Assembly (NCBI RefSeq): GCF_014356525.2
Contig: NC_052505.1
Coordinates: 6,423,171 to 6,487,170 of the forward strand
DNA length: 64,000 nt
Direction of reading: 5' to 3'
DNA from: Nilaparvata lugens
Lineage: Eukaryota; Arthropoda; Insecta; Hemiptera; Delphacidae
Shown in pieces: positions 4,458 to 60,687 of this stretch (positions are counted from its first letter, which is position 1; each line of letters begins with the position of its first letter). Both the position numbers and the translations under genes were made by a program. Below the pieces are notes generated by a model, which worked only from the letters and a program-made list of their open reading frames with translations, was not told where the DNA came from and ran no database searches.

Positions 4458-5649
4458 ACTTTCCTTGCTCTATTACCATAGGTAAGGAAAGTATTGCTTT
4501 CCAAAAAAATTTAAGGTACCCCAATTTCATGTTTTCTATACGTTTCAAGGTCCCTTGAGTCCAAAAACATGATTTTTGGGTGTTGGTCTGTGTATGTGTG
4601 TGTGTGTGTATGTGTGTATGTCTGTGAACACGATAACTCCATTCCTAATTAACCGATTGACTTGAAATTTTAAACTTAAGTTCCTTATACCATGAGGATC
4701 CGACAATAAGAAATTCAATAAAATTCAATTCAAGATGGCGGAGAAAATGGCGGATAATTACTAAAAGACCATGTTTTTCACGTTTTTCTCGAAAACGGCT
4801 CTAACGATTTTTTTTCAAATTTATACCATGGATAGCTATTTATAAGCCCTATCAACTGGCATGGGTCTCATTTCTGGGAAAATTTCAGGAGCTCCTTAAT
4901 ATTCTTGAGAAAAATGGCGGATAATGACTAAAAAACCATGTTTTTCACGGTTTTCTCGAAAACGGCTCTAACGATTTTCTTCAATTTCATATCATAGATA
5001 GATATTCATAAGCACTATCAACTGGCATGAGTTTCATCTCTCAGAAAATTTCAGGAGCTCCGTAATATTCTTGAGAAAAATGGCGGATAATGACTGAAAA
5101 ACCATGTTTTTCACGGTTTTCTCGAAAACGGCTCTAACGATTCTCTTCGAATTCATACCATGGATAGATATTCATAAGCCCTATCAAATGAAATGAGTTT
5201 TTTCTGGAATAATTGCAGGAGCTCCGTAATATTCTTGAGAAAAATGGCAGATAATTGCTAGAAACCATGTTTTTCACGATTTTCTCAAAAATAACTTGAC
5301 CGATTTTTTTTCAAATTCATACCCTGTATAGTTAGTTATTTATCAGCTCTATCAACTGGCATAAGTCTCCTTTCTCGGAAACCAATGGGGGGTCCACTCC
5401 ATCCTTGGGAAATGGACTTAGTAACCTCCTTCTCGTGCATGAGGTAGGTAGGTAGCGCAGTTCATAAAAAGAACACATAGTCGAGATATTTCATCTGTAG
5501 AACAGCTGTTTTGACGACTTTTAAAAAAATGACGACTGAAAAAAATCATCGAATTTCACAATTCACACAAAGAAAAAGTACTCTGAAAACAATTATATAT
5601 ACTCATATACAGAAGTCTGATCGTAGTTTCAAATATGAGCAAGGAAAGT
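4458..5649. mobile_element. 1.2-kb inverted-repeat element, non-autonomous
   Basis: The ends are exact 13-bp inverted repeats: ACTTTCCTTGCTC at 4458-4470 and its reverse complement at 5637-5649. Inside there are a GT-rich tract (about 4592-4622), a unique left part, and about four tandem units of ~165 bp. No transposase frame is present, so it would be non-autonomous. The phrase AAGGTACCCCAATTTC and the sequence after it resemble a repeat I associate with hemipteran genomes; that is memory, not a search. I could not define a target duplication, so the true boundaries may differ by some tens of bases. Confidence 0.6.
4735..5395. repeat. ~165-bp tandem repeat, about 4 copies
   Basis: The marker ATGGCGGATAAT or a close variant recurs at 4747, 4914, 5080 and 5244, spacings of 167, 166 and 164 bp. 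Each unit also carries CCATGTTTTTCACG and TCTCGAAAACGGCTCTAACG. The last unit is the most diverged. The array is nested in the inverted-repeat element above. Confidence 0.85.
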
Positions 5650-14165: not shown

Positions 14166-14316
14166 TGTTTGTCGTATCTGCTATAACGTCTTACTCGGGA
14201 AATTTTGTTTGTCCCCCCGAAGTGCCTCCGCCCGTTTTTAAGACGAAGCCAAAATTTTGGCAGCGCGGTCTGGACGACGACGAGGATACCTGGTTCGAGG
14301 AGTACAATAGTTTCAG
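14166..14316 (+). CDS. grh: Candidate upstream coding exon of grainyhead
   Basis: The reading frame is open from 14144 to 14316 and encodes an acidic, non-repetitive peptide with PPEVPPPVFKTKPKFW, then GLDDDEDTWFEEYNSF. It ends at a donor (CAG, then GTTGGT, at 14317). Two bases of a codon remain, which is exactly the phase the 39572 exon needs: AG plus G gives arginine. There is no ATG in this frame, so either the exon starts at the acceptor ending at 14165 and an earlier exon supplies the start, or this is 5' UTR and translation begins at ATG 39630. I do not recognise the peptide in known Grainyhead proteins. A chance open frame, or an exon of another + strand gene, remains possible; phase agreement alone has a one-in-three chance probability. 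Confidence 0.4.
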
Positions 14317-14320
14317 GTTG

Positions 14321-14608
14321 GTGTTCTCTCTCAAAGTTCAATTTTGAGAAAATTTTCATTCTAGGGCTAGGTTACCTTGTTTTTTAATAACAGTGTTCTC
14401 TCTCAAAGTTCAATTTTGAGAAAATTTTCATTCTAGGGCTAGGTTACCTTGTTTTTTAATAACAGTGTTCTCTCTCAAAGTTCAATTTTGAGAAAATTTT
14501 TATTCTAGGGCTAGGTTACCTTGTATTTTAATAACAGTGTTCTCTCTCAAAGTTCAATTTTGAGAAAATTTTCATTCTAGAGCTAGGTTACCTTGTTTTT
14601 TAATAACA
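14321..14608. repeat. 72-bp tandem repeat, 4 copies
   Basis: GTGTTCTCTCTCAAAG starts at 14321, 14393, 14465 and 14537, a period of exactly 72 bp with only a few substitutions. Each unit contains a small palindrome (CTCAAA paired with TTTTGAG). Each unit also contains CTTGTTTTTTAATAACAG, which resembles a splice acceptor. The array starts four bases after the proposed exon donor at 14317. Confidence 0.95.
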
Positions 14609-17266
14609 GTGGAAGATAACGAAATGTTCCCGGTAGAGTGCACAATCGACGAACCTTATAAAAATAGACACCTCAAGGAATTAAAGAATATATATCAATG
14701 ATTGAAAACGTAACTTGGAGGCTCTTCATAAATTCAAAGCATAGAGAATGAATTCTAGGAAGAACACTAAAAATGTGTAGTTTTTGGTTGAACGAGTTCA
14801 TGTCACAATATTTGTAAAATAATTTTGTTATAATATTGACCATAAAGTCATATTCAATTAAAATTTATTCATTCATGAAAAATCATATTATCAAGTAACA
14901 TATTATCATAATAGAGTAACAATAACGTAATGAATAAGATCATGAATTATATAATGAAGTAAATTTCATGGGAATAAACATGATCGTAACTTTAAAAAAA
15001 ATGGATCAAAATTCAAAAATTATCGATAACGTCTTGATCGTTTATTAAACAGAAAATACAATTCTTCATATTATTTTCATAAACTAATGATAATATAGAA
15101 ATATGATTTGTCACCCTATTTACTTGACACAACTGTAAGCTTGAACCGTGAATTTTCCAATGAATAGTTTGATGCGTACAATAGTTATCCCGAGAATACG
15201 ATGAGTGAAATTCTTATAGAAACTCTCCGTATAAGGTCAATTCTCCTAGAATTCATGTTCACCTATTAGATACCGAATTAGCAGTGAAGATAAGAGAAAT
15301 TTATTTCTAACGTGAAGAACTATGACCTCAACGATAAGTCAGTTGTGATGGTTCGATTGTATGAGGATTTTCCTCCAGATACTATTACGGGATAAAGTAG
15401 ATTAGGCTACTGCAAACTGAATCATTCTGTTTCCACTGAATTCTGCTTATATGAGATCAGAACGGCAAATAGTTTTCTGAATGAATCCCATAGGACATCT
15501 TGACGAAATTAGATCAACATTCATCGTTTCCGAGAATTTATGTAGGCTAATGATAAATCGAGAACATACACCACAGTGAGAAAATCGTGAAAGGTACTTC
15601 CCTATACTTGTTGATAGCTTTATCAAATTTTCGTGTCTTATAGTGATATTGTCCATACTTTTCATCATCGTTCACTCCACATGCTTGATGAGAGTTAAGG
15701 AAAAGCTTTATAAACTTCAACATATTGTTGATATGATTAATATAGGTAAATGTAAAACAAAATACCTCGGAAGTCCTGTACTTAACCCTGAAGTTCCTTT
15801 CCATTGTCGAATATTATGAGAAACTATAACATCCAGTTGGTAGCATAATCGGTTTCCTATGAAAATTTTGTCTCAGAATCTACCCAAGTGATCAACAATT
15901 GTACTAAATTGAAAATATCAATCTATGACTCAAAGTTCGGGAATTTTTTGGTTTCTCATGTTGAGCTCATCGTTTTCTATTGAGATTAATCAAATAGGGA
16001 GCTTGAGAAGATCGATTTTAGTATCAGAAAAGACATTGTTTTAGTGACAGATCAAAAAACGGTACATGCTACTTATAATTTACCGGCAAACCTTTATAAT
16101 CAAACTGATAGTTTTTGATCAATTCGAAAATTAATCTATGTCGTATAAAAACTTAAACAGTCCATTGTGATATTTCCAAATTTTCATTAAAACCATTTAT
16201 GGACTAAGTCAAACACATCTGCTTCTTTAATATCCAAAATTAAAATTTTATATAAACCATCAACTGAGTTTAATAGTTAAAAAAAACATTGATTTTGTAA
16301 ATCAAAAATAGAAATACCTTTAAATTAAAGGACTTATGAAAAAAAATTTTAAAACTTTGAATTCTTTCTTAATTAACTTACCTACACCAAGAAATATTTC
16401 TTACTGATGAAACTTGGGGTCAATTTTAGGTGTATGTTTAATAATTCAAATTGTTTCAGGTATCTTTCTATCAATACACTAGATTCAAGTCAATCAAAAG
16501 ACAGACGAAATTCATTACTTAAAAATGAATCAAATATTATTGCATAAGATTTTATCATTATGCTATCTTTTCTCTAAGATTTCAGTTAATCTAAATTTGC
16601 AGAAAGTCGTTGTAATATGAAATCAAGTGATGCTTTTTAGTGAATCATCTTGAGTTATCTTATGATTTTCCTCCTACTCTCCACCTTTAGTAGTATATAA
16701 CTACTAAAAGTATAAAAAACATGTAACTTTTGTTTGAATTATTCTGTGAAAACAATAAAATTCGAATGATTCAGCTATACAGTATTTCAATTAAGTGATT
16801 CCATTTATCATTAGTTTGGAAAAATAATGAGGCATTATTTCTCTATTGTGAATTTTTTTTGTATGCCAGAAAAATTAGATACAATCAGTAGGCTACTATA
16901 ATACTTTTATCGTTGCAACTTCCTTAAGATTAAAATTACTCGTATTTTTATAATTCATAGAATTGTGTATAAGAATATTATCTTAGGTATGAGTCGAACA
17001 TTGGCGATAGAATAAAATCATTTAAATTTTTCATATAAATCTGAATCATATTACTCCTTCACTATAACAAGTGTATCAAATATGTACCATTTAATTGACA
17101 ATTGAATGTTAAAGTTAAGTTCTTTCCTATTTGAATCACTTACACTATTTTCAGTCCGAATTAGTGCAAATAAAGCAATGGAAAAATGTAATCATTATCT
17201 ATGAAAAATAAATCAATTGGTTCGAATAGTGAGTGCAGGAGTAATTAAAGTTTACAAATTTTATTA
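14609..17266. other. Intronic AT-rich stretch, nothing recognised
   Basis: No coding exon, RNA gene or repeat stands out. If the 14166 exon is real, this lies in the 25-kb first grh intron. Confidence 0.5.
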
Positions 17267-53431: not shown

Positions 53432-53757
53432 GTGCTAGTGGTGACATCGGGCGGCCAGGACCTGGTTGTTGATGTGGTGAACAACAACACGACCGTAAAG
53501 GACGAGTTCGTGCACTCGCCGGCGCAGCGATCGCTGAACGGGGGCGGCACACCCTCATCAACATCCTCCCTCATCACCGGCGACGTCAACAGCGAACTGA
53601 TCGCCACCGCCGACGGACTCAAGCCGGCCGCCATGTACAACAGTTCGCACATTTTCACGACGGCCATCACGCCGCATGGCTCCAACACTCCCTCGCCCAT
53701 TCCCTACTCCGAGCACGGCCAGCAATACACCACCACCGTGTCTCAGGCCACCACTGG
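53432..53757 (+). CDS. grh: Grainyhead exon, Ser/Thr-rich activation region
   Basis: The exon opens in phase 0 after CCCAG and encodes VLVVTSGGQDLVVDVVNNN, then a Ser/Thr/Gly-rich part with SSLITGDVNSELIATADG and ITPHGSNTPSPIPYSEHGQQ. It ends with two bases of a glycine codon at the strong donor GTAAGT (53758). The codons have marked G/C at third positions, unlike the introns. No structured domain is visible. It fits the poorly conserved, low-complexity region between the activation segment and the DNA-binding domain of insect Grainyhead proteins. Assignment relies on phase continuity with its neighbours (0 in, 2 out) and composition. Confidence 0.88.
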
Positions 53758-53969
53758 GTAAGTAGCAACTAATCAAAATTCAATCGTTAAAGATATTGAT
53801 TAGAGTACTGATAGGTAAATAAAGGTATACATGAAAAAAGTATAATATGATTACATAGATACTCAATCGCAGGACACCACTGACTGGGCTAGTCTACTAA
53901 TTAAAACTCTATTCGTGAAAAATCTCTAAATAAGGATAGAAATATAAATTTACTTAGCAAGGTATTAAT
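53758..53969. other. Start of the LINE-bearing grh intron
   Basis: A short AT-rich stretch with no feature between the donor and the decayed reverse transcriptase remnant. Confidence 0.5.
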
Positions 53970-54480: not shown

Positions 54481-54670
54481 TTGTAAGATTATTTTCATAC
54501 TGTCACCATTCTTCAAAAAAAATAACATCAACACTTCCCATCTAATCATGCTTATAGCTCGATGTGACTTTCATTAGAAATTAAAGGATTATTTCTAATC
54601 CTTCGCCAGCGTAAAAAACGGAAAAGTAAATATTTCCAAGGGCATTGCTACCATAGTAAATAGGAAATGT

Positions 54671-56359
54671 ATGAGCATTGATTACTTCAATAGTCTAACT
54701 ACTATATTTTCACAAACAAAGCAAATTGATGCGTCGGTGAAATTCGACGAGACATTGAAAATACTCAATTTGTTTTTATTGACAGATAATAGTAACTTGC
54801 TTTCCAATCTAGAAATATTACTATCTATGATCGATGAATGGGCTTCAGATAAACAAGCTCTGACAGTTGGAATTGATTTTTTTGGAACCATGGCTGATGT
54901 ATCTTGTATTGATCTCTTAAGTACTGTCTTGGCAACAAAACATATTAAATATGTGTTTTACTACAAGGGTATAAATAATCTTACATTTTTAAATATTCCA
55001 GAAGAGAAAAACAATGAGAAACCATGTCCAACGGGATACTTACCTGAAAAACCACCCAAACATGAATTTATAAATAGTATGCTGGAGCTCAGAAATCTTC
55101 TGAGTCAACATGATCAGATAAATTCTATTATTTACTATGAAATTCTGACTAACATTACAAAAAAAAACTTATTGAGCTCTTATTCGTACCTAATAGAGAT
55201 AAAGCGTAAAGAGATGAATATTTATGATAATAATCTAAGAACATTTCTATGGCCAACTAGGAAAAGTTATAGAATGGGCTTCTGCTTGGATAACGAAGGA
55301 ACCTACGTGGAATTCAACGAGAGTAATAAAAGATTCTTAACAAAAGAAAAATACATTCTTGTTAGTAGAGATACACAACTCATGTTAAACGGTGAGCTGT
55401 ATCAGAAAATATCATCAATTGACATTTCTGCTCCAAGTCTTCCTAATATTACGTGGATAGATGGTGTGCCAGGGTGTGGAAAGACGTTTGAAATACTGAA
55501 CCAGCATAAACCAGGAATAGATTTAGTTCTCAGTCAAACAAGAGCAGGAATCAAAGACATCAGAGAGGCTGTCATTCATAAGTACGGTAAGGATTACTGT
55601 AGAAAGATAATAAGATCAGATTACAGAACCGTTTCATCTTTCATTATAAATGGAGTGGGCAAGAAATATCATCGTGTCTTTATAGATGAGGCTGTACTGA
55701 TGCATGCTGGCTACATTGGTTTCATTGCGAAATTATCAGGATGCTCCGAAGTTTTCCTACTTGGTGATTCTAAACAGATTCCTTACATCGAAAGGAGTGG
55801 ACTGAAAGTTAGATGGTCTCATCCTTCAGTTTTTTGTGAGCCCACACGGAAAGTGACTTTAACTAGAAGATGTCCGATCGATGTATGCTGCGCACTATCC
55901 AAATTCTATGGTAAAATTGAAACAACTAGTGGAACTCTTCGCTCAATTAGGAAGACCATCTTTAACGGCGGTCTTCCACAGCTTGATCCAGAAACACTTG
56001 TATTAACATACACGCAGAATGAGAAAAAAATTATTCAAGAGTTACTAGGTGACAGGATTGATAAAACAATAAAAATTCACACGATACACGAAGCACAAGG
56101 TCTTACTTATAGAAATGTTATTCTAGTGAGGACAAATTCAAAGGATCTAGAGATCTATAACAGTGAAAGTCATGTGATTGTAGCACTCAGTAGGCACACT
56201 CATAGTTTCAACTATCTAACAACAGCGGAGAATGATCTCATATCATTGCTTATAAAAAACACATTAAGCTTTGATGATAAATATATAATGAGATGGCAGA
56301 GGAAAATAGAGGAGAACAAGCATGGAGGGGTGCGTATGAATAAGCATGATGATGAGTAA
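54671..56359 (+). CDS. LINE ORF1 with superfamily-1 RNA helicase domain
   Basis: The product is 562 residues. Residues 1 to about 250 match nothing I recognise. Residues 258-530 form a complete SF1 helicase: motif I GVPGCGKT (265-272), Ia LVLSQTR (285-291), II VFIDEA (336-341), III LLGDSKQIPY (363-372), IV LTRRCP (397-402), V TIHEAQGLTY (471-480), VI VIVALSRHT (502-510). The Walker lysine K271, D339-E340, Q369, Q476 and R508 are all present, so ATPase function is plausible. The RCP, HEAQG and VALSRHT signatures are those of tobamovirus/virgavirus (alphavirus-like) replicase helicases, more than of cellular Pif1 or UvrD. There is no CCHC knuckle or RRM as in usual LINE ORF1 proteins. The protein may bind or unwind element RNA, or act against silencing; both are speculation. 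The ATG at 54671 is the first of the frame. The ORF overlaps ORF2 by 14 nt. Confidence 0.92.
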   Translation: MSIDYFNSLTTIFSQTKQIDASVKFDETLKILNLFLLTDNSNLLSNLEILLSMIDEWASDKQALTVGIDFFGTMADVSCIDLLSTVLATKHIKYVFYYKGINNLTFLNIPEEKNNEKPCPTGYLPEKPPKHEFINSMLELRNLLSQHDQINSIIYYEILTNITKKNLLSSYSYLIEIKRKEMNIYDNNLRTFLWPTRKSYRMGFCLDNEGTYVEFNESNKRFLTKEKYILVSRDTQLMLNGELYQKISSIDISAPSLPNITWIDGVPGCGKTFEILNQHKPGIDLVLSQTRAGIKDIREAVIHKYGKDYCRKIIRSDYRTVSSFIINGVGKKYHRVFIDEAVLMHAGYIGFIAKLSGCSEVFLLGDSKQIPYIERSGLKVRWSHPSVFCEPTRKVTLTRRCPIDVCCALSKFYGKIETTSGTLRSIRKTIFNGGLPQLDPETLVLTYTQNEKKIIQELLGDRIDKTIKIHTIHEAQGLTYRNVILVRTNSKDLEIYNSESHVIVALSRHTHSFNYLTTAENDLISLLIKNTLSFDDKYIMRWQRKIEENKHGGVRMNKHDDE

Positions 56360-59300
56360 TAATAACGTGCTGGATGTGGCAAATGAACTTGATTCCGTGG
56401 ATGAGATAGAGGACAGTGTGATTGAGGATAAACAACAACTCCACGTTGCTCTTCAACACTCTAATATAACTGTATTTTCTCTCAATATCAGAAGTATTAG
56501 GAAGAACTTCGATGACCTGATGATTCAACTACAGGATATGTCCCATGATTTCGATATAATAATACTAACAGAATGCTGGATCAAAAGAGATTATACACAG
56601 AAGCAACTGAAGGACTACAATATTTTTCACTCTTTGAATAATCGTACTCAAAATGATGGAGTAATTGTATATGCAAAGGAAAATCTCAATGTACAATCGG
56701 TAGAACTAAATATCAGACAGGCCAACGTTCTTCATCTACGACTTCAAACATCAAAGGAGAGATATAATATATTAGCAGTGTACAGATCACCTTCCTACGC
56801 CAGCATAACAGAGTTTTTAGAGGACTTTGAAACAGTGCTTGGTAGACTGAGAGGTCAACTTATTATTTGCGCAGGAGACTTCAACATTAATACGCTACAG
56901 CCACATCAGCATTATCAACTTGATGATTATTACGACTTATTGAGTGAACACGGTTTGAAGAACTGCATTAAAAAGGCTACCAGAGTAACAGCGGGAACGT
57001 CTTCTTGTTTGGATCATATGTTGACCAACTGTAAAAGTAAAATCCATCCAATCGTGTATCACTCGAGTATCACAGACCACTTCATTACAATTCTTGGACT
57101 GGAAGAACATCAGTTAGACAGAACAAATGGGGATGAACAGAGCTCAACTAACTGTCAACTCTCATCTAACTGTAAATCTGTCAACTTGAACGGCTTGAGG
57201 AGAGGACTGCGAGTGGAACAATGGACGGAGGTTTTTGAGTCAAATAACACAGACTCAGCTTACGAAAAGTTCCTAGAAATTCTACAAAAACATATGGAGA
57301 GCAATACACATCATTACAGACAAAAGAAGAGGATCAAGAGCATAAAACCATGGATAACACGAGGACTTATCTCAGCTATAAGAACAAGGGATTCTCTAAA
57401 TAGAAGAAGGAAACTGGACCCAGAGAACGGAGAACTCGCTAACTACTACCGAAGATACAGAAATACACTGACGTCACTCATCCAAACTACAAAAGAAAAT
57501 TATTTCAAGATGCAACTAAATGAAGCAAACAATGATGTAAGAAAGACATGGAAAATAATCAAGGATGCTACAGATTCAGATCAGAAAAAGGATATACAAC
57601 TGAATGCTTTGAAAATTAATGGTGACATGGTCACACTGAAAGATAATCCTAGAGAACTATTGAGTCATGTAAATAATTTCTTTGTTAATATTGGAGAGAG
57701 TATGGCTAACAAAATATCTGAGAGTCTGAATAAAAATATTAACGAAATTATAGCAGATAATGTACCAGAATTGCATGTACAGAGTAATATGTTTCTTTTC
57801 CCCATAGATGAAAAGGAAATAATAAACACAATTGATTCTTTACACATCAATAGTGCACCAGGCCTAGATGGATTAGATAACAGGACCTTGAAAGGAATAA
57901 AAGATTTAATTTCTAAGCCTTTAACTCATATTTTTAATCTGAGCTTGTTATATGGTACTTTTCCAAGAGCAATGAAGCAAATCTGTGTCAGACCTATACA
58001 TAAAGCAGGCGATAAACTAATTATTAGTAATTATAGACCTATTTCACTGATTAGCAATGTATCAAAAATTTTAGAAAAACTAGTTAAATCAAGATTAATA
58101 AGCTTTTTAGAAATTAATAATATTCTTTCTCCTAACCAATTTGGCTTCCGCAAAGGTATAAGTACAGAATTAGCTGTACTAGAATTATCAAAATTTGTAA
58201 CTAGCAATTTAGAGGAAAAGAATAAATGTCTAGCAGTATTTTTAGATTTAGCAAAGGCCTTCGACTCTGTTTCCCATGACTTATTAATAAAAAAGCTTGA
58301 GGCAATAGGTATAAGAGGAGTGCCACTTGAATGGTTCAGATCCTACCTCAGCAATCGACAGCAAAAAACAAAGGTTGAGAACCATATGAGTGCAGAGGGT
58401 TCCATGAAGTTTGGAATACCTCAAGGAACAGTTTTAGGACCAATTTTGTATTCGATCTTTGCAAATGAGTTGTGCTCCATTCAAATTCAAGGTAGAGTTA
58501 TAGCCTTTGCTGACGATACAGCACTCCTTTTTCAAGGAAAAAACTGGGAAGAAGTGTTCCAAACAGCAGAGATAGAACTCACAAAAATCACTAGTTGGTT
58601 AAGAAATAACTTATTGTCATTGAATTCAGAAAAAACAAAATTTTTAGCTTTTTCTTTAACAAATAGCACAAAACCACACATGACAACAATGAAGCTCCAT
58701 AATTGTGATAGAAATTGTAACAATAATTGTAATTGCCCACTAATAGAACGCTCTGACAATATAAAGTATTTAGGAATAATAGTAGATGATTCATTGAAAT
58801 GGAACAAACACATAACATATACAACTGCCAAAATAAGGAAGCTTATATACAAATTCTATCAATTAAGGCGTATCATAGACAAAGAAATGTTAAAAACTGT
58901 ATACTTAACATTAGTTGAATCTCTTTTAAGGTACGGTCTGTTAGTTTGGGGTGCAGCTAACTTCAGTTTTATAGATCCATTATTTAAAACTCAAAAACGC
59001 ATTTTGAAAATAATGGGAAACAGGGAAATCCAGTTTTCAACTGTAGAATTATTTATAGAAAATAGAGTACTCAGCGTTAGGCAATTGTATATATTATTGT
59101 TATTAGGGTATATGAAAAAACATCAAAATAGGAACCATATCATAAATCATAGCCATAATACTAGAATAAGAGAACGTTACAATCAAGAAGTACCAAGAAT
59201 GAATACAGCGTTTGGGCAAAGATCACTAGGATATTTAGGGCCTAAAATATCTAATAGAATACCATTAGAAATCAAAGGAGAGGAAAATTTCAATAGGTTC

Positions 59301-59375
59301 AAAAGAAAAATTAGACATTGGTTATTCAGTATTGGGATACAAAGTAGTGAGGAACTAATAGTAAGTAGGATTTAG
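56346..59375 (+). CDS. LINE ORF2: endonuclease and reverse transcriptase
   Basis: The product is 1009 residues. The N-terminal endonuclease/exonuclease/phosphatase domain (about 40-250) has N47 in SLNIRS, E76 in LTECW, YRSPS (146-150), GDFNIN (177-182), D223-H224 in LDHMLTN, and SITDHF (241-246), so its catalytic set is complete. It nicks target DNA to prime reverse transcription. The reverse transcriptase (about 540-860) has SNYRPISLIS (561-570), motif A FLDLAKAFD (632-640), motif B GIPQGTVLGP (690-699) and the catalytic FADD (721-724). A Cys cluster, C-x3-C-x3-C-x-C (787-797), lies just before KYLGIIVDDSLKW. The C-terminus has RSLGYLGPKISNRIP and no RNase H. The frame is undamaged. Translation probably starts at the AUGAUGAUG overlapping the ORF1 stop. 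Clade placement between jockey, CR1 and L2/Daphne-like groups is uncertain. Confidence 0.95.
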   Translation: MMMSNNNVLDVANELDSVDEIEDSVIEDKQQLHVALQHSNITVFSLNIRSIRKNFDDLMIQLQDMSHDFDIIILTECWIKRDYTQKQLKDYNIFHSLNNRTQNDGVIVYAKENLNVQSVELNIRQANVLHLRLQTSKERYNILAVYRSPSYASITEFLEDFETVLGRLRGQLIICAGDFNINTLQPHQHYQLDDYYDLLSEHGLKNCIKKATRVTAGTSSCLDHMLTNCKSKIHPIVYHSSITDHFITILGLEEHQLDRTNGDEQSSTNCQLSSNCKSVNLNGLRRGLRVEQWTEVFESNNTDSAYEKFLEILQKHMESNTHHYRQKKRIKSIKPWITRGLISAIRTRDSLNRRRKLDPENGELANYYRRYRNTLTSLIQTTKENYFKMQLNEANNDVRKTWKIIKDATDSDQKKDIQLNALKINGDMVTLKDNPRELLSHVNNFFVNIGESMANKISESLNKNINEIIADNVPELHVQSNMFLFPIDEKEIINTIDSLHINSAPGLDGLDNRTLKGIKDLISKPLTHIFNLSLLYGTFPRAMKQICVRPIHKAGDKLIISNYRPISLISNVSKILEKLVKSRLISFLEINNILSPNQFGFRKGISTELAVLELSKFVTSNLEEKNKCLAVFLDLAKAFDSVSHDLLIKKLEAIGIRGVPLEWFRSYLSNRQQKTKVENHMSAEGSMKFGIPQGTVLGPILYSIFANELCSIQIQGRVIAFADDTALLFQGKNWEEVFQTAEIELTKITSWLRNNLLSLNSEKTKFLAFSLTNSTKPHMTTMKLHNCDRNCNNNCNCPLIERSDNIKYLGIIVDDSLKWNKHITYTTAKIRKLIYKFYQLRRIIDKEMLKTVYLTLVESLLRYGLLVWGAANFSFIDPLFKTQKRILKIMGNREIQFSTVELFIENRVLSVRQLYILLLLGYMKKHQNRNHIINHSHNTRIRERYNQEVPRMNTAFGQRSLGYLGPKISNRIPLEIKGEENFNRFKRKIRHWLFSIGIQSSEELIVSRI

Positions 59376-59651
59376 ATTTAAGCAGTATTCTTTTTAATAA
59401 GGTAATTTATATGTAGAAAATAGTACCTCGGTTTAGTATCTTTGTACTAGGTGATTCTTAGGGTAATAGATATAGTTTTAGATTTTTGGAATTTTTGTAT
59501 TATCTGTTGTAGCATAAATTAGTATTAATTTGATGATAACCTCGACACATATATTATATAGTGAGGTATCATTTTTGTAAACACTGAATATTGTTATATT
59601 ATTGAAAATATATGAAAAAAATATGTATTGTATGAATTTATGAATAAACTC

Positions 59652-59709
59652 CTCTGGATGTGTCGTCCAACATCCAGAGAAATTATTATTATTATTATTA
59701 TTATTATTT
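59652..59709 (+). terminator. LINE 3' terminal stem-loop and (ATT)n tail
   Basis: CTCTGGATGT (59652-59661) and ACATCCAGAG (59670-59679) form a perfect 10-bp stem with an 8-nt loop. About nine ATT repeats follow. In several LINE clades the element's reverse transcriptase recognises a 3' stem-loop and a short tandem tail replaces poly(A). That this hairpin does so here is inference. Confidence 0.8.
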
Positions 59710-59752
59710 CATTGGCTTTGATTGTGAAGAGTATAATATCATTACCCCTTTC

Positions 59753-59989: not shown

Positions 59990-60148
59990 CATCAAACGAT
60001 ATAGCCAGTTTGATTTTGTAGTTGCTCTACACCCTTTTTTATTGGTGATTTTTTTCTACTGTATTTTCTTTCTATTTTTAATGATTATGTATTTGCATGT
60101 ATTGGATGAATTGAAAGTGACTAATGATGATTGCTGTTGTGTTGACAG

Positions 60149-60458
60149 AGGATCGTTCACGGAGCCCTACTACCGCGGCGAGTACTTTGGCAGCGGAGGC
60201 GGCAGCGTGGACGCTGGCGGTGCCAGTCCCTACCGCAGCGTGGCGGGAGTGGGCGGCTACGAGAGCGGTGGCGTAGCGACGGGGGCGGGAGCGGGGGCGG
60301 CAGCCTTTGTGGAGCGCTACGTGCGGCAAAACAGCGCCGCCTACCACGGCAGTAAGGGTGTCATCGCCGCCGCCGGCCTCACCGTCGACCTGCCGTCACC
60401 TGATAGTGGCATCGGGGCCGACGCCATCACGCCTCGTGACCAGGCTCAAATCCAACAG
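60149..60458 (+). CDS. grh: Grainyhead exon with LTVDLPSPDSGIG block
   Basis: The exon begins after GTGTTGACAG and completes the glycine codon opened at 53757. It encodes GSFTEPYYRGEYFG, a Gly/Ala-rich low-complexity region, FVERYVRQNSAAYHG, then LTVDLPSPDSGIG and ITPRDQAQIQQ. The block LTVDLPSPDSGIG followed by ITPRD is a hallmark of insect Grainyhead just ahead of the DNA-binding domain; I recognise it from Drosophila Grh. The donor is CAG then GTAGGC at 60459, phase 0. GC is high throughout. Confidence 0.95.
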
Positions 60459-60687
60459 GTAGGCTACTCGCTCATTTCAATAATCACAATCCAGTACACA
60501 TAATATCGACTAAACATTGATAAGTTGATAACATGAATAAGCTCTTAAATACATAAATTTTGCAAGATACTTCTCAAATAATAATTTGAGTTATATAATA
60601 AGAGATCAAATTTCACCTATCATAACCTGATTACACAACTACTCAGGAAGATTTATAATTAATATAAACATAATTATCAAATATAAA
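60459..60687. other. Intron start, nothing recognised
   Basis: AT-rich sequence with no repeat or exon. Confidence 0.6.

Follow-up and report, generated by a model that had tools for sequence, protein, structure and literature searches.

A virus-type helicase as the predicted second of three open reading frames in a LINE of the brown planthopper, Nilaparvata lugens

A window of 64,000 nucleotides from the brown planthopper, Nilaparvata lugens (the whole stretch of DNA analysed here; NC_052505.1, positions 6,423,171 to 6,487,170), contains an open reading frame (ORF) of 562 codons on the plus strand, at positions 54671-56359, which overlaps the start of an endonuclease-reverse transcriptase (EN-RT) gene. 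The locus raises the question of what kind of helicase this ORF encodes, and what place it holds among the genes of the LINE to which it belongs. The ORF encodes a superfamily 1 (SF1) helicase of the alpha-like-virus type. A first interpretation made from the letters of the window (the sequence-only reading) had expected a Viral_helicase1 match in Pfam, intact SF1 motifs, and a viral rather than a cellular type of helicase, and on these three points it proved correct. PF01443 (Viral_helicase1) spans residues 263-517 of the 562-aa product (E 1.2e-39, 136.9 bits, cut-off 21), followed by far weaker matches to other SF1 models (AAA_19, 0.0017; UvrD_C_2, 0.016; UvrD_C, 0.021). The residues of the ATPase and helicase motifs are invariant in both alignments of relatives (A1, 28 rows; A2, 31 rows). 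Among solved structures, the replicase helicase of tomato mosaic virus (ToMV) is the best relative (2.3e-36), and an alphavirus helicase matches at 3.7e-16. When a profile of 31 helicase relatives was searched against the PDB, ToMV replicase scored 213 bits and alphavirus nsP2 107 bits, whereas the best cellular match, an AAA-family ATPase, scored 20.2 bits. The predicted fold of one helicase relative (P0002) has arthropod virga-like replicases among its best matches in a viral structure library.

The planthopper protein differs from these viral counterparts in its context. Relative to the ToMV replicase helicase (PDB 3vkw/3wrx), it adds an N-terminal domain of ~200 residues and comes without methyltransferase or RdRp. 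The helicases of Atrato virga-like virus 1, Bemisia tabaci virga-like virus 2, and Hubei virga-like virus 8 are structural matches by predicted fold, but they are parts of large RNA-virus replicases. Scans of viral contigs for helicase relatives yielded 10 stretches that fitted one pattern and, in a second scan, 109 stretches, none of which was confirmed in either scan.

The existence of the ORF and its virus-type helicase stand as first read, but position 54671 is not the start of the protein: in the window copy the frame is open back to 54599, giving 586 codons, and in longer copies it runs for 645 codons from its ATG. These longer copies reach ~1.5 kb further upstream than the window copy. 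Of 29 other loci, 25 are homologous to the window from exactly position 54599 onward; in the remaining 4 the homology begins further inside. Since this boundary lies inside the helicase frame and longer copies continue upstream, the copy in the window is truncated at its 5' end, at position 54599 (Table 1). It is therefore unable to make the full helicase protein and is without the gag-like ORF found upstream in longer copies. Truncation of the 5' end is common among LINE insertions. The hairpin and (ATT)n 3' end are common to other copies, and the flanking sequences differ at all five 3' junctions found among eight fetched copies. The candidate 8-nt target-site duplication is ambiguous because its 3' copy merges into the (ATT)n tail.

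The LINE is flanked by two coding stretches that look like exons and have AG/GT borders (53432-53761 and 60147-60460). Introns are generally bordered by GT and AG, and on the evidence of these stretches the LINE seemingly occupies a host intron in sense orientation. Of the two stretches, the one downstream may resemble grainy head. The window also contains tandem repeats of 72 nt and about 166 nt and a 98% inverted pair ~19 kb apart (14249-14680, 4744-5310, and 11072-11592/30520-31060).

Table 1 Features of the truncated LINE copy in the N. lugens window (positions count from the first letter of the window)
Feature	Position	Strand	Basis or remark
Candidate 5' copy of 8-nt target-site duplication, ATTATTTC	54588..54595	+	Sequence reading
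5'-truncated LINE copy, family A	54599..59710	+	Without upstream gag-like ORF and ~first 60 helicase codons
Remaining part of helicase ORF	54599..56359	+	586 open codons of 645; start in the sequence-only reading is internal ATG 54671
PF01443 viral SF1 helicase core	55457..56221	+	Residues 263-517; Pfam, PDB profile, predicted fold of relative P0002
Helicase stop/EN-RT start overlap, ATGATGATGAGTAA	56346..56359	+	Third ATG at 56352 gives 8-nt overlap as in families B, C, D
EN-RT ORF, 1009 codons, Exo_endo_phos endonuclease and RVT_1	56346..59375	+	ORF list, Pfam
3'-terminal perfect 10-bp hairpin, CTCTGGATGT / ACATCCAGAG, followed by (ATT)n tail	59652..59679	+	Folding z -4.16
(ATT)n microsatellite tail with candidate 3' target-site copy ATTATTTC at 59703-59710	59682..59710	+	

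The genome contains at least 150 PF01443 matches (150 of 807 candidates scored), and the pairing of helicase and EN-RT noticed in the sequence-only reading is not confined to the window. Scoring 45 of 56125 RT candidates gave 34 matches that reach residue 1; among these listed matches, 26 of the 34 (window included) have the helicase upstream, so other copies do join the helicase ORF to this EN-RT ORF, and the refuting condition set in that reading does not hold. Exactly the window's overlap is present in 18 of the 26 pairs, again with the window included, and 17 of the 26 also have the gag-like ORF.

The capture of a helicase is not new, since helicase-bearing "Jockey" LINEs of N. lugens were published in 2017. 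The main text of PMC5563155 (Morozov, Lazareva and Solovyev 2017) reports SF1-helicase LINEs of the Jockey superfamily in Hemiptera and Orthoptera, among them dozens of N. lugens sequences with a helicase ORF close to or overlapping the EN-RT ORF, called ORF1 and encoding a single-domain protein. As described there, these elements share with ours the species, the helicase type, and the direct overlap with the EN-RT ORF, and our assignment of the N. lugens RT to the Jockey superfamily is taken from the same text. The TRAS/R1 LINEs of Lepidoptera (Lazareva 2015, as cited in PMC5563155) are likewise non-LTR elements with a virus-type SF1 helicase, and its N-terminal domain is probably the same; according to that text, their helicase is fused to EN-RT at the C-terminus of ORF2, whereas the helicase of N. 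lugens is a separate ORF. An architecture unlike the C-terminal fusion had been proposed at the outset. The separate ORF before EN-RT holds, but the same layout had already been published for Jockey-type LINEs of this species.

While helicase LINEs are thus already known, even in N. lugens, the new part is the three-ORF architecture. Longer copies have a separate ORF of 422-430 codons upstream of the helicase, and the protein that it encodes in one full copy matches N. lugens LOC120356092 with 100% identity. Three CCHC knuckles were found by pattern in 16 of 18 of these gag-like proteins; Pfam searches with two of the proteins gave no significant domain, neither CCHC nor the RRM that proteins of this kind usually contain. 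On this sequence evidence, the full element consists of a gag-like CCHC ORF1, the helicase, and EN-RT, and the helicase is the second of three predicted ORFs. It had been read from the window as the element's ORF1, and as a replacement for an RRM/zinc-knuckle ORF1. Neither proposal is supported: longer copies have an ORF of ~430 codons upstream of the helicase and keep in it the triple-CCHC ORF1. The helicase is also placed in ORF1 in the main text of PMC5563155, whereas here a CCHC ORF1 precedes it. That main text, figures aside, mentions no third ORF and no macrodomain, and CCHC appears in it once, in a general sentence; a three-cistron layout is not described in the available text of the open-licence literature on helicase LINEs (PMC5563155, PMC6338049). 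Related triple-CCHC gag proteins are present in the wasp Mischocyttarus (P0165 and P0168), and P0165 ends in T-D-Y-G-K, like the gag proteins of helicase LINEs.

The order of the ORFs recurs across the genome. Among the matches listed, a gag frame lies directly upstream in 49 of 79 helicase matches, a count that includes two split elements twice (77 of 1217 helicase candidates and 98 of 1691 gag candidates were scored), and the gag-to-helicase spacing in family B is 253-254 nt in 17 of 20 cases. No scored helicase match stands beside 51 of the 98 listed gag matches, and no gag match beside 30 of the 79 listed helicase matches. All five unpaired gag loci that were opened contain helicase sequence, nearly complete in two and deleted or broken in three. 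As far as copies were fetched, the order gag-helicase-RT is the same in four families, A-D (helicase figures: B 53%, C 49%, D 45%). Pairs of copies with common 5' ends and different flanks are present in both family A and family B (two copies each). All three ORFs are stop-free in two listed copies, on C4 and C2810, both of family A. The RT frame is broken in both fetched copies of family B and both of family D, so that an intact three-ORF copy is seen only in family A.

The two junctions are built alike. Measured from the ATG to the end of the stop codon, the gag and helicase ORFs overlap by 14 nt in families A, B, and C and by 11 nt in D, while helicase and RT overlap by 8 nt in B, C, and D and by 14 nt in A, or by 8 nt from A's third ATG. 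At both junctions the next ORF is in the +1 frame in all four families. In 12 of 14 aligned relatives the gag protein has Y-G near its C-terminal end, with 1-3 residues after it, and the codons for this tail contain the ATG-G of the helicase. For four gag/helicase protein pairs from other sources, matched by equal length of the source sequence, every pair allows a nucleotide overlap that fits both proteins (11, 11, 11, and 17 nt); three of these overlaps fit 7-8 of 24 helicases and one fits only 1 of 24. In a control, each of ten gag tails fitted 0 to 10 of 119 RT proteins. The single helicase/RT pair of equal source length (P0010/P0036, 5415) has no compatible overlap up to 60 nt, and RNA folding beside the helicase/RT junction is unremarkable (z 1.23 and -1.19). 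Start/stop overlaps of 8-14 nt, each into the +1 frame, suggest serial reinitiation at both junctions.

The helicase protein consists of an N-terminal domain of about 200 residues followed by the SF1 helicase. The N-terminal domain aligns with that of the moth TRAS helicase type (hhalign E 9.8e-5, probability 58) and is probably common to the planthopper and TRAS helicases. Neither Pfam, searched with 13 members, nor a sequence profile against the PDB matched the N-terminal part to a macrodomain, and a macrodomain assignment by sequence was set aside as unsupported. The LAP N-domain, the OSH designs, and the Vtc4 crystallization carrier are presumably macrodomain-type folds. We constructed a phylogenetic tree of 22 of 33 helicase relatives together with families A-D, in which ToMV and one alphavirus were the only viruses. 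The LINE helicases are separated from both viruses with a support of 89, and support at several inner nodes is low (7 to 72). Against these two viruses only, the Jockey-type and moth TRAS-type helicases fall together, a grouping compatible with one capture as well as with two. In this tree with two viruses only, P0024 and P0025 group with the moth TRAS type (support 88). These two helicase proteins, of 754-756 aa, are extended at the N-terminus by a long stretch that resembles a coiled coil on visual inspection. Relative P0001 is nearly the same as N. lugens family C and is therefore not an independent relative. It is conceivable, but in our judgment unlikely, that these are true three-cistron LINEs, translated via two stop-coupled restarts, whose macro-like X domain and helicase were captured as one unit from an arthropod alpha-like virus; the unit being common to Jockey-type and moth TRAS-type elements, this would imply a single capture that moved between LINE clades.

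The family moved recently, as six copies (L002-L007) are 99.7-99.8% identical to the window, differing by only 0.2-0.3%, and families A and B contain many near-identical copies. Between families A-D the helicase has a pN of 0.32-0.38 versus a pS of 0.71-0.80, the latter near or at saturation; by this sequence measure, an ORF-wide average, purifying selection acts on the helicase ORF taken as a whole. The same A-run of the helicase (window equivalent 55159-55167) lacks 1 nt in six near-identical copies (L017-L022), and the 3' flanks are distinct in the four of them whose 3' junction was found, so that either these copies moved independently or the run tends to slip. A deletion shared by copies with distinct flanks hints that the helicase can be supplied in trans or is dispensable. 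The deletion may mean that the helicase is dispensable in cis, or it may reflect slippage in the A-run or an assembly error; since the lesion sits in a homopolymer, dispensability was not adopted as a conclusion from these six copies. Other copies are rearranged. In L051 (G000:C8:39381300-39383650) an internal deletion has produced one long ORF in which helicase residues 1-183 continue, without a change of frame, into the RT from its residue 124, and at the 3' end of L032 (G000:C4:10538500-10538842, 343 nt seen) the tail of a full copy abuts an RT-region piece of the same family and orientation.

We consider it probable that the window holds a 5'-truncated copy, inserted recently, of a brown planthopper LINE that is Jockey-type and tricistronic and is translated by serial restarts on one RNA, with a helicase that acts on the element's RNA or RNA/DNA. 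The element would encode, in order, a CCHC gag-like ORF1 protein, a protein made of the N-terminal domain and the helicase, and the endonuclease-reverse transcriptase. As the overlaps suggest, ribosomes on a single element RNA would terminate at the end of each of the first two ORFs, step back by 8-14 nt, and initiate again in the +1 frame. The second protein would most likely be an RNA helicase, powered by NTP, that acts on the RNA or RNA/DNA of the element itself. It might resolve duplexes so that packaging and target-primed reverse transcription can proceed, or it might remove dsRNA that would otherwise feed RNAi.

Alternatively, the helicase protein could be a silencing suppressor, binding dsRNA or siRNA and kept against RNAi, with unwinding secondary. 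This is a possibility that we favor less: the moth TRAS helicase is reported to suppress silencing weakly in Nicotiana (Lazareva 2015, as cited in the text of PMC5563155), but no residue of the ATPase and helicase motifs varies among 28 and 31 aligned relatives and the ORF is, on average over its length, under purifying selection, and invariant ATPase motifs speak against a pure binder, which would not need them. A passenger gene serving host antiviral defence rather than the element, as proposed in 2019 in the available text of PMC6338049, is improbable, since an overlapping cistron kept in four families, with many near-identical A and B copies, is what would be expected of a gene that serves the element. 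The idea that the helicase ORF is the element's true ORF1, with the CCHC ORF contributed by a neighbouring element, agrees with its naming as a single-domain ORF1 overlapping ORF2 in the text of PMC5563155 and with a window copy that has no CCHC ORF upstream, but we take it as refuted for the families seen by the constant gag-to-helicase spacing at many loci, the two A and two B copies that begin alike but differ in their flanks, the likeness of the four families, and the compatible overlaps in other sources.

In the tricistronic Jockey-type element that we propose, a virus-derived gene has been inserted between the two genes that are standard in LINEs, both junctions being start/stop overlaps, and the zinc-knuckle ORF1 has not been replaced. 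Translation of three cistrons in succession from one transposon RNA, as appears to take place here, would be rare in eukaryotes. With the helicase as a third component, the need for a helicase becomes genetically testable, and since N. lugens carries family A copies with three open ORFs, both this need and three-cistron translation can be tested in a living system.
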